DNA from: Candidatus Kuenenia hertensis
Lineage (GTDB): Bacteria; Planctomycetota; Brocadiia; Brocadiales; Brocadiaceae
NCBI GenBank assembly: GCA_021646465.1
Contig: SOET01000001.1
Coordinates: 62,001 to 126,000 of the forward strand
DNA length: 64,000 nucleotides
Direction: 5' to 3'
The notes beneath the pieces were generated by a model that was not told where the DNA came from, searched no databases, and worked only from the letters and a program-made list of their open reading frames with translations. Position numbers and translations under genes: made by a program. Below are positions 6,858 to 25,377 of this stretch, piece by piece. Position 1 is the stretch's first letter; the number at the start of each line of letters is the position of its first letter.

Positions 6858-7043
6858 TTTAATAATTCTCGTCTTAAAAGGTTAAAGTGTTAAAATTGCC
6901 CGAACCTTTCAACAGTTTTATCATTAAGCGCAAAATAGAAACCTTTAACGCACATACAACAAAAAATAGTGTGGAAGAAATTTAACTATTTTTAGATCGA
7001 TATGTTACGAAAACAGTCAAAAACTGATGAATAATTTACAATG

Positions 7044-7100
7044 AAAAAAAGTGTGTCATGGCACACTTTGTGTCACATATGTCACTGTGACACGCAAAAC
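7044..7100 (-). promoter_or_regulatory. Conserved double-hairpin element, copy 1
   Basis: On the minus strand it reads TGTCACAGTGACA, then TGTGACACAAAG, then GTGTGCCATGACACAC followed by seven T. This gives a palindrome and then a terminator-like stem with a U-run. A near-identical 48-nt copy lies at 25324-25377 on the opposite strand. It is about 190 bp upstream of the sigma54-type regulator (start 6857), where it could act as an attenuator or as a terminator for upstream transcription. Confidence 0.45.
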
Positions 7101-7194
7101 CACTTAGAAACAAAAGAGGGCGCCAAAAAGGGTATATGGCTGATTGTTATGATGTTAAAATAAATTCAGTATATTCCGTCTCAAATATAAATCT

Positions 7195-7476
7195 CAATAT
7201 TTAATTATGATAATTTCTCAAATTTTAATATAACCTGGTTGTTCAGGGCAAAAACTATTTTACAGGAATTAACTCTCATAATAATGTTGACATGTTGTAT
7301 TCCTCAAATTTCCAGCACTTGTCTAATTTAGATACCATATTTTAATCATTTAGGAGAAAGTAGTATGAAGCCAATACAATTAAAAGAAGGGGTTTATTGG
7401 GTTGGTGAAATTGACTGGGATTTAAGAAATTTCCATGGTTATTCAACCCAGCGTGGGTCCACATATAATGCTTATC
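7195..7476 (+). repeat. 282-bp direct repeat, copy 1
   Basis: Matches 12180-12461 base for base at a constant offset of 4985, with two substitutions and no gap seen. It holds the promoter region, the ribosome site (AGGAGAAAGTAGT) and the first 37 codons of the flavodiiron gene. Together with copy 2 it frames a 4.7-kb block of minus-strand genes. Confidence 0.95.
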
Positions 7477-8413: not shown

Positions 8414-9262
8414 TTAATGTGCCCTCTTATATATAAAATCATATTCATCTTTTAACATTTTCCTCCATATTGTAGCCTTATTTTTAAACCTAGGGGGTAC
8501 TCTATCTGCATTACGAACAGTCTCTTTTCTTTCCTCAATTGTTTTTACTTTAGGCAACCCAATTAAAGCGTAAGACTTAAATGGTTCCCTTACAGGAAAC
8601 CTTTCGAAATGATCTCTGGATGTCCAGAGTTCTTTGGCATTCATGAGATCTGCATCAAACGGAAGATCAAGATTCCTAACTTTTTCAAAAGGATTTTCAA
8701 GCGGTATAAATGGTGATGAACCTTTAAACTTCTCATTGTACAATTTCCGTTCTTCTTTATGTTCTATACTTTTTTCAAACACGATTCCTTCTGTATGTAC
8801 ATCTCTTTCCTTAATAGTTTTTACTTCTTTTCCTCCCGTTACTATTCTTCCTTCCGGTATATGCACTGTTTCATGGACTGGATAAATAAGGAAAGTATTA
8901 TAGCCTGGATAAGACCCGTAGCCAGGTTTGAAAATAATAAACCTGGTTTTTTCTCCGCCACTTGTAAGGGGGCAGAAATAAAAAAATATATTGCCCGGGG
9001 TAGTAAACTCTCCGTTGCTGTCAGTAAGGGTCTCCTGAACATCCGCACTATCACTGCCAGAATCCAGAGGTCCCCATACCGTCACACTGTAAATAGCTGC
9101 AACCAACGCTCCCTCAATAGGTTCTTTGGTCTCTGCATCTATCACCTTCCCTTTAAAAGCGCTTTCGTAATAAATAACCCAGCCACTGCTGGCCATTGCA
9201 GTATTAGATGTAGACAATAAAATTAATATCGTACATATGATTATGAAATAATTCCTTAACAT
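8414..9262 (-). CDS. Secreted protein with carboxypeptidase-regulatory-like domain
   Basis: 282 residues; ATG preceded by GAGGT. A signal peptide ends near TAMASSG. Residues about 35-130 read FKGKVIDAETKEPIEGALVAA, then TLTDSNGEFTTPG and KPGYGSYPGY. This is the beta-sandwich pattern of carboxypeptidase regulatory-like (CarboxypepD_reg) domains, usually adhesive or structural modules on exported proteins. The C-terminal 150 residues are charged and unrecognised. It is coupled to the downstream nuclease-like gene (one-base gap) and belongs to the operon behind the c-di-GMP riboswitch. Confidence 0.75.
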   Translation of the reverse strand: MLRNYFIIICTILILLSTSNTAMASSGWVIYYESAFKGKVIDAETKEPIEGALVAAIYSVTVWGPLDSGSDSADVQETLTDSNGEFTTPGNIFFYFCPLTSGGEKTRFIIFKPGYGSYPGYNTFLIYPVHETVHIPEGRIVTGGKEVKTIKERDVHTEGIVFEKSIEHKEERKLYNEKFKGSSPFIPLENPFEKVRNLDLPFDADLMNAKELWTSRDHFERFPVREPFKSYALIGLPKVKTIEERKETVRNADRVPPRFKNKATIWRKMLKDEYDFIYKRAH

Positions 9263-9420: not shown

Positions 9421-10450
9421 TTAAAATGCCTTTATCTTCCACAAACCATCCTGATCCTTTACAAACAGTAAATAATAGGAGTACGTGATTTCTTCTCTTG
9501 TCACTATGATTTCATATTCATCTCTGTTATCACCGATATCAACAAACCGTATATATCCCAATTCGTTGCCAATCGTATTAAGAACAGAAGAAAGGTCTGT
9601 AAACTGTTCCCGATACACTTCACAAAAACGATCATCAAAAAGAGCCAATGCACCCTCTACATCATTATTGATAAAGTATGTTATCAAACCCTCCCATTTT
9701 TCCTTAAAGTAGGCATCCATTTCATTTAAGGATAAGATGGTGATGGCAACTGTATCCGTATATAGGTTGCCCTGGTTATCAGTGACTGTGATAGTTGGAT
9801 AGTAGATTCCTTCCTGATTATAGACAAAAGATATATTGTCAGGATCTGCTATAATTTCATTAGCACCATTTCCTTTATAGTCTATTTCATACAAAATAAT
9901 TTGATTGCTTATTTGGGTATCCACGGCGAATGCGACTTCCAAAGGAGATACTCCGCTTGTTTTATTTGCAAAGAGATTTACCACGTTTTGATATTCGTTT
10001 GTTTGTACCGTTATTGAGTCTGTTATTTTATTACCATCCTTGTCTGTAGCAAATGCTGTTATTGTATTTGATCCTATTTCCAGAAATACACCATTGGCAA
10101 CAAACTCATTCCCCGATATTTCTGAAAGAACACTATTAACAATAATTCCGATATCCTGGATTTATTGTTTCAAAATCGGAAGGTGTAGCAGAAAGAAATG
10201 GCTCGAGTTCAGGAACCACACAAACGGAAATGTTTGATAAGGACAAAGTACTTTCGAATTCCGTTTCAATCAAAAAAGCCTCTCCACATTCCGCATCAAT
10301 TGTTATCTTTTCTGAAAACCATTGGATCGTATGTCCTTTCCCCGCATTGTCGTTTTTACCTCCACCCTTGCAGTCTGTAAAATATGCCAAAACGCACAAA
10401 AATTGAATAGCGACATAAAATAACATAAGAAGAATTCTTATTTTATCCAC
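9421..10450 (-). pseudogene. Secreted PKD-domain protein, frameshifted
   Basis: The first frame starts with a GTG at 10448-10450 (AAGGAG eight bases upstream) and encodes an N-terminal hydrophobic signal segment and a beta-rich domain up to SDFETINP, then stops at 10136. The next frame continues without a stop: IGIIVNSVLSEISGNE, then IGSNTITAFATDKDGN, then a PKD-like domain (YPTITVTDNQGN) and a C-terminal region with SnoaL-like features (FINNDVEGALALF), to 9421. Removing one G near 10155 joins the frames (AATCCAGATATCGG). It is either a one-base insertion or a sequencing error. It is the first gene after the c-di-GMP riboswitch, which suggests an exported adhesin-like product. Confidence 0.7.
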
Positions 10451-10720
10451 GTATTTTCTCCTTTAAAACCCTTGTTTAAAGATGTGTTAACTACATTAGG
10501 TTTTATAGTAAAAGAAAAAAAGAATACTCGTTTAGATAATGTAGACGAGTATGCATCAATTTCGCAAAATCAATCCAATAAGTTATCCTGCGAAAATATC
10601 GATTTATTTTGATAACATGACTGTTTTCTTTAATTCAGAAAAATGTCATGCCATTATTGCTGAGGATAGGAAATTCAATTGCCGCCGGTCATGAACAACA
10701 TGTTTGTTTTGCCTTTTTTC

Positions 10721-10766
10721 AAAAAAAAAGACCCAAGTCGGAATCCTAATCTGATACTTGGGTCTT
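10721..10766 (-). terminator. Rho-independent terminator of the c-di-GMP riboswitch
   Basis: Minus strand: AAGACCCAAGT, a 17-nt loop, ACTTGGGTCTT, then a run of nine T. The 11-bp stem is perfect. Its AAGACCC arm could instead pair with GGGTCTT inside the aptamer, giving the usual switch between termination and read-through. Confidence 0.85.
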
Positions 10767-10781
10767 CTATGAATTCATATT

Positions 10782-10862
10782 CATTTGGCAACCTGGCAAT
10801 CTTCACTACTGAAGACCCACGGCTTTGCGTCCCAACTTCGCAGTTGGTTTGCCTTTTTCAGA
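10782..10862 (-). ncRNA. Cyclic-di-GMP-I (GEMM) riboswitch aptamer
   Basis: The minus strand reads AAAGGCAAACCAACTGCGAA, then GTTGGGACGCAAAGCCGTGG, then GTCTTCAGTAGTGAAGATTG and CCAGGTTGCC. This reproduces the GEMM-I consensus: GGCAAACC, a GAA-capped stem, GGGACGCAAAGCC, and the tetraloop-receptor hairpin ending in AGGUNNCC. An intrinsic terminator follows 15 bases later. It would control the minus-strand genes from 10450 to 7342, all exported proteins, as expected for c-di-GMP control of surface or secreted functions. Confidence 0.9.
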
Positions 10863-10989
10863 TATTAAAAATTTTCAGCAGAGTAGCAAAAACGCAAAAA
10901 AATCAATATCTTTTTTTAATTCTTTATCGGAACAGGGAATCCCAAAAACATCTGCTTACAAATTACCCCTTAAGACAGCTAAAAAAATT

Positions 10990-12144
10990 TTAAGGAGACA
11001 AGGACACCGGCATACACGTATCCCGTGTCAATGACACATCCAGCACAAACAACCCACGATTTACATCGCTCACAATCACTATTCCGCTTGGGAAAAACGG
11101 ATAGACGCTCCATGCTCCGTTATATGATGATTCGTCATTTTCCGGATAGGTATCAAACCATCCGACCTGCTGTGGTTCTACCGGATTCTTTGCACAGAAA
11201 ACACGCAACCCCGCGGTATATTCCGCCTCAAATATAAACTTGCCGCGGACATATATATTGTGATCAATCGCTGAAACTCCCGAACTATACTCGTTAACCA
11301 GTTTTGGATGCTTCAGGTTCGTCACATCAAAAACAAGCGTCCTGTTTATATTGTCAAGTTCATCATTAAGATAGAGAAATCGTCTGTTATCATTTATCCA
11401 ACACTGATGCGCATACGCAAGATCGGGATATGGCGTCCGTGAAATACGAAACATATTCGATTTGTCCGTAACATCATAGATATCCAAGCCGCGGCCTTCT
11501 CCCGCTCCAAAACAGATTTGCCTGCCGGCATATGGTCCTCTTTTATACGTTATGACCTGTGCATCGTGTAATCCGTCACCGCCTTTAGCAGAAGACATCA
11601 TTCCCGCCAGTTCAGGGTTCTCCGGATCGATTAAATCATACGCAACCAACCGTTCCTCATTAATATTGGGAAGGCATAAATATAAAAATCCGCTCTTTTT
11701 ATCTATAGCAAGGTTGTGGGCAGTGTCTAACCCGTCTTCTGTAAACCTTTGAACAAACGTAACAATGCCATCATCGACGCCGGATAAATCGACAATATCC
11801 ATCCCTCCGCCGCATTCATTTACTACATAGGCATAATCCCGGTAAACCTTCACATCACCCCAATAACAACCGGTATGCGTTACATACTCAATAGTAACCG
11901 GATCGTAGGGAACGGTAATATCTACAATAACTAACGCGTCACGCACAACAAGAAGGGCATACTCACGTCCGGAACCGGAAACGTATCCCCAACAATCATT
12001 GGCGCTTTCCGGGTAAGAGGGTAAATCACTGAGAGAAACTTGTGATCGTAGAATAACATTTTTCGACTCATACTGCGCATAAGCATTTGACATCGCCATA
12101 ATACCCGTTAGGACAAAACAAAGGACTGTATTAAAAATATTCAT
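10990..12144 (-). CDS. Choice-of-anchor-B/LVIVD-repeat secreted protein
   Basis: 384 residues from the ATG at 12142-12144; the open frame extends to a GTG at 12180. A signal peptide ends at NAYA-Q. Repeated beta-propeller blades carry the LVIVD pattern: ALVIVDITVPYDPVTIEYV, GGGMDIVDLSG, LDIYDVTDKSN, TLVFDVTNLKHPKLV, GLFVLDVSL. LVIVD and choice-of-anchor-B proteins are exported beta-propellers, probably for binding or adhesion. The 282-bp repeat begins at 12180, directly upstream of the possible GTG. The gene's native promoter may therefore have been lost, and the start is uncertain. Confidence 0.75.
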   Translation of the reverse strand: MNIFNTVLCFVLTGIMAMSNAYAQYESKNVILRSQVSLSDLPSYPESANDCWGYVSGSGREYALLVVRDALVIVDITVPYDPVTIEYVTHTGCYWGDVKVYRDYAYVVNECGGGMDIVDLSGVDDGIVTFVQRFTEDGLDTAHNLAIDKKSGFLYLCLPNINEERLVAYDLIDPENPELAGMMSSAKGGDGLHDAQVITYKRGPYAGRQICFGAGEGRGLDIYDVTDKSNMFRISRTPYPDLAYAHQCWINDNRRFLYLNDELDNINRTLVFDVTNLKHPKLVNEYSSGVSAIDHNIYVRGKFIFEAEYTAGLRVFCAKNPVEPQQVGWFDTYPENDESSYNGAWSVYPFFPSGIVIVSDVNRGLFVLDVSLTRDTCMPVSLSP

Positions 12145-12179
12145 TCTCCACCATTTTTCATATTTCAAGTATTCTCTCA

Positions 12180-12461
12180 CAATATTTAATTATGATAATT
12201 TCTCAAATTTTAATATAATCTGGTTGTTCAGGGCAAAAACTATTTTACAGGAATTAACTCTTATAATAATGTTGACATGTTGTATTCCTCAAATTTCCAG
12301 CACTTGTCTAATTTAGATACCATATTTTAATCATTTAGGAGAAAGTAGTATGAAGCCAATACAATTAAAAGAAGGGGTTTATTGGGTTGGTGAAATTGAC
12401 TGGGATTTAAGAAATTTCCATGGTTATTCAACCCAGCGTGGGTCCACATATAATGCTTATC
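12180..12461 (+). repeat. 282-bp direct repeat, copy 2
   Basis: The intact partner of 7195-7476. It carries the promoter region and 5' end of the complete flavodiiron gene. Confidence 0.95.
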
Positions 12462-25323: not shown

Positions 25324-25377
25324 ATGTCACAGTGACAAGTGTGACACAAAGTGTGTCATGACACACTTTTTTTGCTG
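25324..25377 (+). promoter_or_regulatory. Conserved double-hairpin element, copy 2
   Basis: ATGTCACAGTGACAAGTGTG, then ACACAAAGTGTGTCATGACA, CAC and seven or more T. It contains a perfect 16-bp palindrome GTGTGTCATGACACAC followed by T7 (terminator-like). It also contains an alternative stem TGACACA-AAG-TGTGTCA that excludes the first. Copy 1 is at 7044-7100 on the other strand. The rest of 25003-25483 shows no gene. Confidence 0.5.

Follow-up and report, generated by a model that had tools for sequence, protein, structure and literature searches.

A predicted c-di-GMP-I riboswitch of OFF polarity and its related copies in Candidatus Kuenenia hertensis

The locus and its operon

The window analysed here, a stretch of 64,000 nucleotides from Candidatus Kuenenia hertensis, carries on its minus strand a c-di-GMP-I (GEMM-I) aptamer and an intrinsic terminator, and behind them lies a short operon (Table 1). 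The limits given for the riboswitch in the initial annotation, 10721-10862, proved to be exact. The plasmid collection gave no match. The first reading frame of the operon begins with GTG behind AAAGGAG, 271 nt past the terminator, and in the interval stands a second hairpin that is possibly a weak terminator, to judge from its arms and T run. A second aptamer just past the first terminator, suggested by the likeness of GAAAAAAGGCAAAAC near 10719 to the beginning of an aptamer, was also considered, and Rfam gave it no support.

Table 1. Positions of the riboswitch elements and operon genes in the window
Feature	Position	Strand	Basis
c-di-GMP-I (GEMM-I) aptamer, G20/A47/C92, GCGA tetraloop on P2	10783..10862	-	RF03167, RF01051, base identities
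GGGUCUUC, aptamer P3 strand and antiterminator strand	10811..10818	-	pairing kept in class A copies
GAAGACCC, switching strand, pairs with aptamer or terminator 3' arm	10760..10767	-	
Intrinsic terminator, perfect 11-bp stem (13 with flanking pairs) and T run	10721..10768	-	
Second hairpin ATACTCGT/ACGAGTAT and T run, between riboswitch and first gene	10515..10552	-	read in sequence
First operon frame, 104 aa, N-terminal hydrophobic signal, upstream part of broken PKD gene	10136..10450	-	
Rest of PKD gene, other frame (listed ORF 9984-9421)	9421..10163	-	PKD match below cut-off, G030 homologue
Secreted protein, carboxypeptidase-regulatory-like N-terminus (weak)	8414..9262	-	PF13620, E 0.0014, below cut-off
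Nuclease/phospholipase-like secreted protein, repeat sequence in place of its C-terminal 46 aa	7342..8448	-	

The PKD gene, annotated at first as frameshifted, does have a broken frame. Its homologue in a related genome of the same order (G030) can be aligned with it in a single frame, at 49%, between about 10155 and 9433, and extends further upstream, at the point where the frame of the window hits a stop. The 104-aa upstream frame showed no similarity to the N-terminus of that homologue, so the lesion may be more than a simple frameshift. The nuclease/phospholipase-like protein matched no Pfam family, its nuclease label coming from a motif only, and its homologue in G030 has a frame of 598 aa; in the window the gene has lost its C-terminus to a 285-bp direct repeat. 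The two copies of this repeat (7192-7476 and 12177-12461, 99% alike and 4985 bp apart) bracket an LVIVD gene, the riboswitch and its operon, and the repeated sequence carries the upstream region and the first 37 codons of a flavoprotein gene at 12350; it may have arisen by insertion, by duplication or as an assembly artefact. Judged by its reading frames, the operon is at least partly decayed.

The idea that the operon is a conserved riboswitch target was tried and rejected, as G030 has homologues of all three operon genes, and the 6 kb available upstream of its PKD gene showed no aptamer, within contigs that end inside the cluster. In another relative (G002) the LVIVD and flavoprotein genes are arranged as in the window, homology stops at window position 11028, and the remainder of that contig end holds no aptamer. 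The riboswitch was seen next to this operon in a single genome, and within what was compared the two are an addition specific to this genome. Control of the PKD, carboxypeptidase-regulatory-like and nuclease-like genes by the riboswitch, as initially annotated, is thus a claim that stands in part: it is plausible that the operon from 10450 to 7342 is the target, but the PKD frame is disrupted, the nuclease-like gene has lost its end to the repeat, a hairpin intervenes and the link is seen in a single genome.

Elsewhere in the window, an element of about 49 bp with overlapping inverted repeats (GTGTCACAGTGACA..TGTGACACA..AGTGTGTCATGACACACT, then a T run) occurs at 7041-7095 (minus strand) and 25325-25373 (plus strand), one copy of it preceding a sigma-54 regulator (6857-5472). 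It is repeated at several sites in this genome and in G002 with 88-94% identity, often ahead of signalling genes, and may be an attenuator, a binding site or a mobile repeat.

Identity of the aptamer and its ligand

The covariance search proposed in the initial annotation bears out the GEMM-I aptamer. The variant family RF03167 (c-di-GMP-I-GGC) matched 10862-10783 on the minus strand over the full model (1-80) with 68.0 bits, above the curated cut-off of 59, and an E-value of 6.1e-14, and was the sole Rfam family above cut-off across the 64-kb window; the parent family RF01051 gave 75.4 bits (cut-off 35, model 1-87). The two rankings differ, RF03167 being best by E-value and RF01051 higher in bits. 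The E-value, together with some 18 homologous copies in the same genome, excludes a chance match.

Positions 20, 47 and 92, numbered as in the Vc2 aptamer and by comparison with it the ligand-contacting bases, are G, A and C. Aptamers for c-di-GMP have G20, A47 and C92, and those for cGAMP have A20; with G at position 20, the copy in the window lacks the mark of GEMM-Ib. A comparison of 96 copies, drawn from this genome and related ones, shows G at position 20 in 95 of them and A at position 47 in all 96. The loop of P2 is of the GNRA type in 93, and the six pairs of P2 are preserved in 98-100% of the copies, in as many as six standard pair types. RF03167 has a consensus G at 47, so that the window shares with this family a full-length match above cut-off and differs from it at this very base; the name 'GGC' probably denotes positions 20, 47 and 92, its middle letter being 47. 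On account of the base identities at 20 and 47 and the conservation of P2 over the 96 copies, we file the aptamer as a canonical c-di-GMP-I aptamer by its sequence, despite the better E-value of the GGC variant, and the three contact bases point to c-di-GMP as its ligand.

Terminator and predicted switching

The perfect 11-bp terminator stem followed by nine T, as first described, was found again: the 5' arm AAGACCCAAGT (10766-10756) pairs perfectly with the 3' arm ACTTGGGTCTT (10738-10728), and two of the nine T (10729-10721) fall within the stem. The aptamer strand GGGUCUUC is complementary to GAAGACCC, which overlaps the terminator 5' arm. The proposed pairing of GGGTCTT in the aptamer with the terminator arm is therefore supported by complementarity, and likewise by the order of folding and by conservation in paralogues and relatives.

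When transcripts of increasing length, all starting at 10866, were folded, the aptamer prevailed up to about 105 nt, the antiterminator reached a probability of 0.73-0.77 at 110 to 130 nt, and the terminator took over with 0.98-1.0 from 135 nt. For the complete leader, the terminator fold has -46.4 kcal/mol versus -37.6 kcal/mol for the forced antiterminator, and since equilibrium thus favours the terminator by about 9 kcal/mol, antitermination must be kinetic. At low c-di-GMP, nascent GGGUCUUC would base-pair with downstream GAAGACCC, a pairing that would open aptamer helix P3 and occupy the terminator 5' arm, so that the polymerase reads on; with c-di-GMP bound, P3 would be locked and GAAGACCC left free, and the terminator would form and stop transcription. 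Since the folds are nearly balanced at 110-130 nt, a ligand that stabilises the aptamer would tip the system towards termination, and from this anatomy we infer that the ligand should turn expression OFF. We consider it highly probable, on the folding model, that the locus is a c-di-GMP-I riboswitch with a termination platform acting as an OFF switch.

There is a precedent in Cd1 of Clostridioides difficile, a c-di-GMP-I OFF switch that acts by transcription termination with kinetic antitermination (PMC9262584). Both systems share the aptamer class, the compatibility of aptamer and terminator, and a transient antiterminator that breaks the aptamer; by computation, the window copy likewise has a terminator that does not overlap the aptamer and folds together with it, and a mutually exclusive antiterminator that disrupts the aptamer. 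The two differ in phylum, in that the antiterminator here uses the GGGUCUU strand of P3, and in its nearly unchanged reuse across a dozen paralogues. Another candidate pairing, between the aptamer 5' strand AUCUGA and UCAGAU in the terminator loop, is present in the window, yet across 31 copies it resembles shuffled loops (at least 6 pairs in 13 of 31, versus about 32% expected) and was discarded.

Related copies, alternative readings and meaning for the Brocadiales

This genome (4.17 Mb) contains 18 RF01051 matches above cut-off, and 12 of them, the window copy included, have the same design, here called class A, with AAGACCCA or a sequence close to it as the terminator arm. In class B, the aptamer 3' strand (AGCCUUACUGC) itself serves as the terminator 5' arm. 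An automatic rule sorted 98 copies sampled in this genome and its order into 31 of class A, 23 of class B (an approximate count, because the rule overlooked C17c, a class B copy on inspection by eye, and called C76 through a wrong hairpin), 16 of other kinds and 28 without a terminator. Both designs coexist in the present genome, where class B is represented by C61, C43, C76 and C17c. The antiterminator has a probability of at least 0.7 in 27 of the 31 class A copies versus 20 of 186 controls with shuffled arms. Within class A, CCCA of the arm is invariant and identity in the stem above falls to 32-52%, a pattern to be expected where a second partner in the aptamer constrains the lower arm. 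None of ten terminator-like hairpins unrelated to a riboswitch in the sequence of this genome carries the arm; two apparent exceptions are in fact riboswitch terminators seen from the other strand.

A third platform type, in which the terminator stands apart and has a 5' arm, AACCUUACU, similar to the aptamer 3' strand, was observed in copies from G005, G007, G012, G015, G019 and G021 (e.g., L163, L171, L170 and L174), often ahead of DUF1559 prepilin-like genes, where the genus of the window has class A. Moreover, GEMM-I copies stand in series in this genome, 0.3-1.1 kb apart: three at C5:7311-9306 (L054), and two each at C17:28481-29141 (L053) and C38:4620-5002 (L052). Most of these have their own terminator, and the third copy of C5 is degenerate and close to a start codon. 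Tandem c-di-GMP-I riboswitches are known, e.g., Bc3-5 (PMC4759541), and the series resemble them, apart from the spacing of 0.3-1.1 kb; the window copy is single.

An ON switch, in which the ligand prevents termination, is known from the pilM GEMM-Ib riboswitch of Geobacter metallireducens, which responds to cGAMP (PMC9262584). With pilM the class B copies of this genome share the use of the aptamer 3' strand as a terminator arm, and by this analogy ligand binding should prevent termination in them too. That ON-type platforms coexist in the same genome lends the same polarity some room in the window, but the copy here belongs to class A, its terminator does not overlap the aptamer, both form at once and it is the antiterminator that disrupts the aptamer, and we regard an ON switch as very improbable at this site. 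Still less credit is due to another cyclic dinucleotide, such as cGAMP, as the ligand. GEMM-I scaffolds can indeed change ligand through position 20, and the best E-value falls to a named variant family; nevertheless, pilM-like A20 is absent from the window and from 95 of the 96 copies, A47 is present against the RF03167 consensus, the higher bit score belongs to RF01051, and the contact bases are the set for c-di-GMP, which makes cGAMP unlikely.

A different question is whether the switch, intact in sequence, still has a working target, or is a recent relic that controls at most the carboxypeptidase-regulatory-like protein while its operon decays. The broken PKD frame, the nuclease-like gene cut by the 285-bp repeat and the terminator-like hairpin ahead of the first gene would all fit such a loss, but aptamer, switching strand and terminator are without decay, with scores among the best of the genome, and the first gene starts behind a good ribosome-binding site; we hold this loss to be unlikely, if less so than the two preceding alternatives. 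The reading we prefer remains that of a c-di-GMP-I OFF switch with the operon as its plausible target.

The genes that follow the copies of this genome include those for a DUF1559 prepilin-like protein, an HTH protein followed by an AAA ATPase, a chondroitinase-B-like secreted protein, a subtilase-Kelch protein, an alpha-amylase, an amidase, a sodium:sulfate-type symporter and a PAS histidine kinase; after the copies of relatives, prepilin-like proteins, PilM-like proteins (by eye) and large secreted proteins recur. GGDEF matches number 25 in the same genome and EAL matches 9, of which two are apparently pieces of one gene. Across the family, RF01051 copies number from 1 to 56 per genome, the highest figure being that of G020 (4.1 Mb), with 55 of its 56 matches above cut-off. 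To our knowledge, the published high is roughly 30 copies per genome, in Geobacter, a figure that G020 with its 55 exceeds, and the present genome has 18.

As a single switch, the riboswitch in the window is of an ordinary and known kind; what is uncommon is the size of the family, with up to 55 copies, and the two-way design. A search of openly accessible literature found no description of c-di-GMP riboswitches in anammox bacteria. We lean towards the view that c-di-GMP riboswitches form a major layer of regulation in the Brocadiales, the anammox order, with tens of copies per genome and two opposite termination designs within one genome, by which the same signal may switch off one group of surface and secretion genes and switch on another. 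For anammox reactors the formation of granules and biofilms is of importance, and anammox riboswitches can be tested in vitro without genetics. If true, such c-di-GMP control of prepilin-like proteins, secreted enzymes and signalling proteins would give a testable point of access to organisms in which manipulation is difficult.
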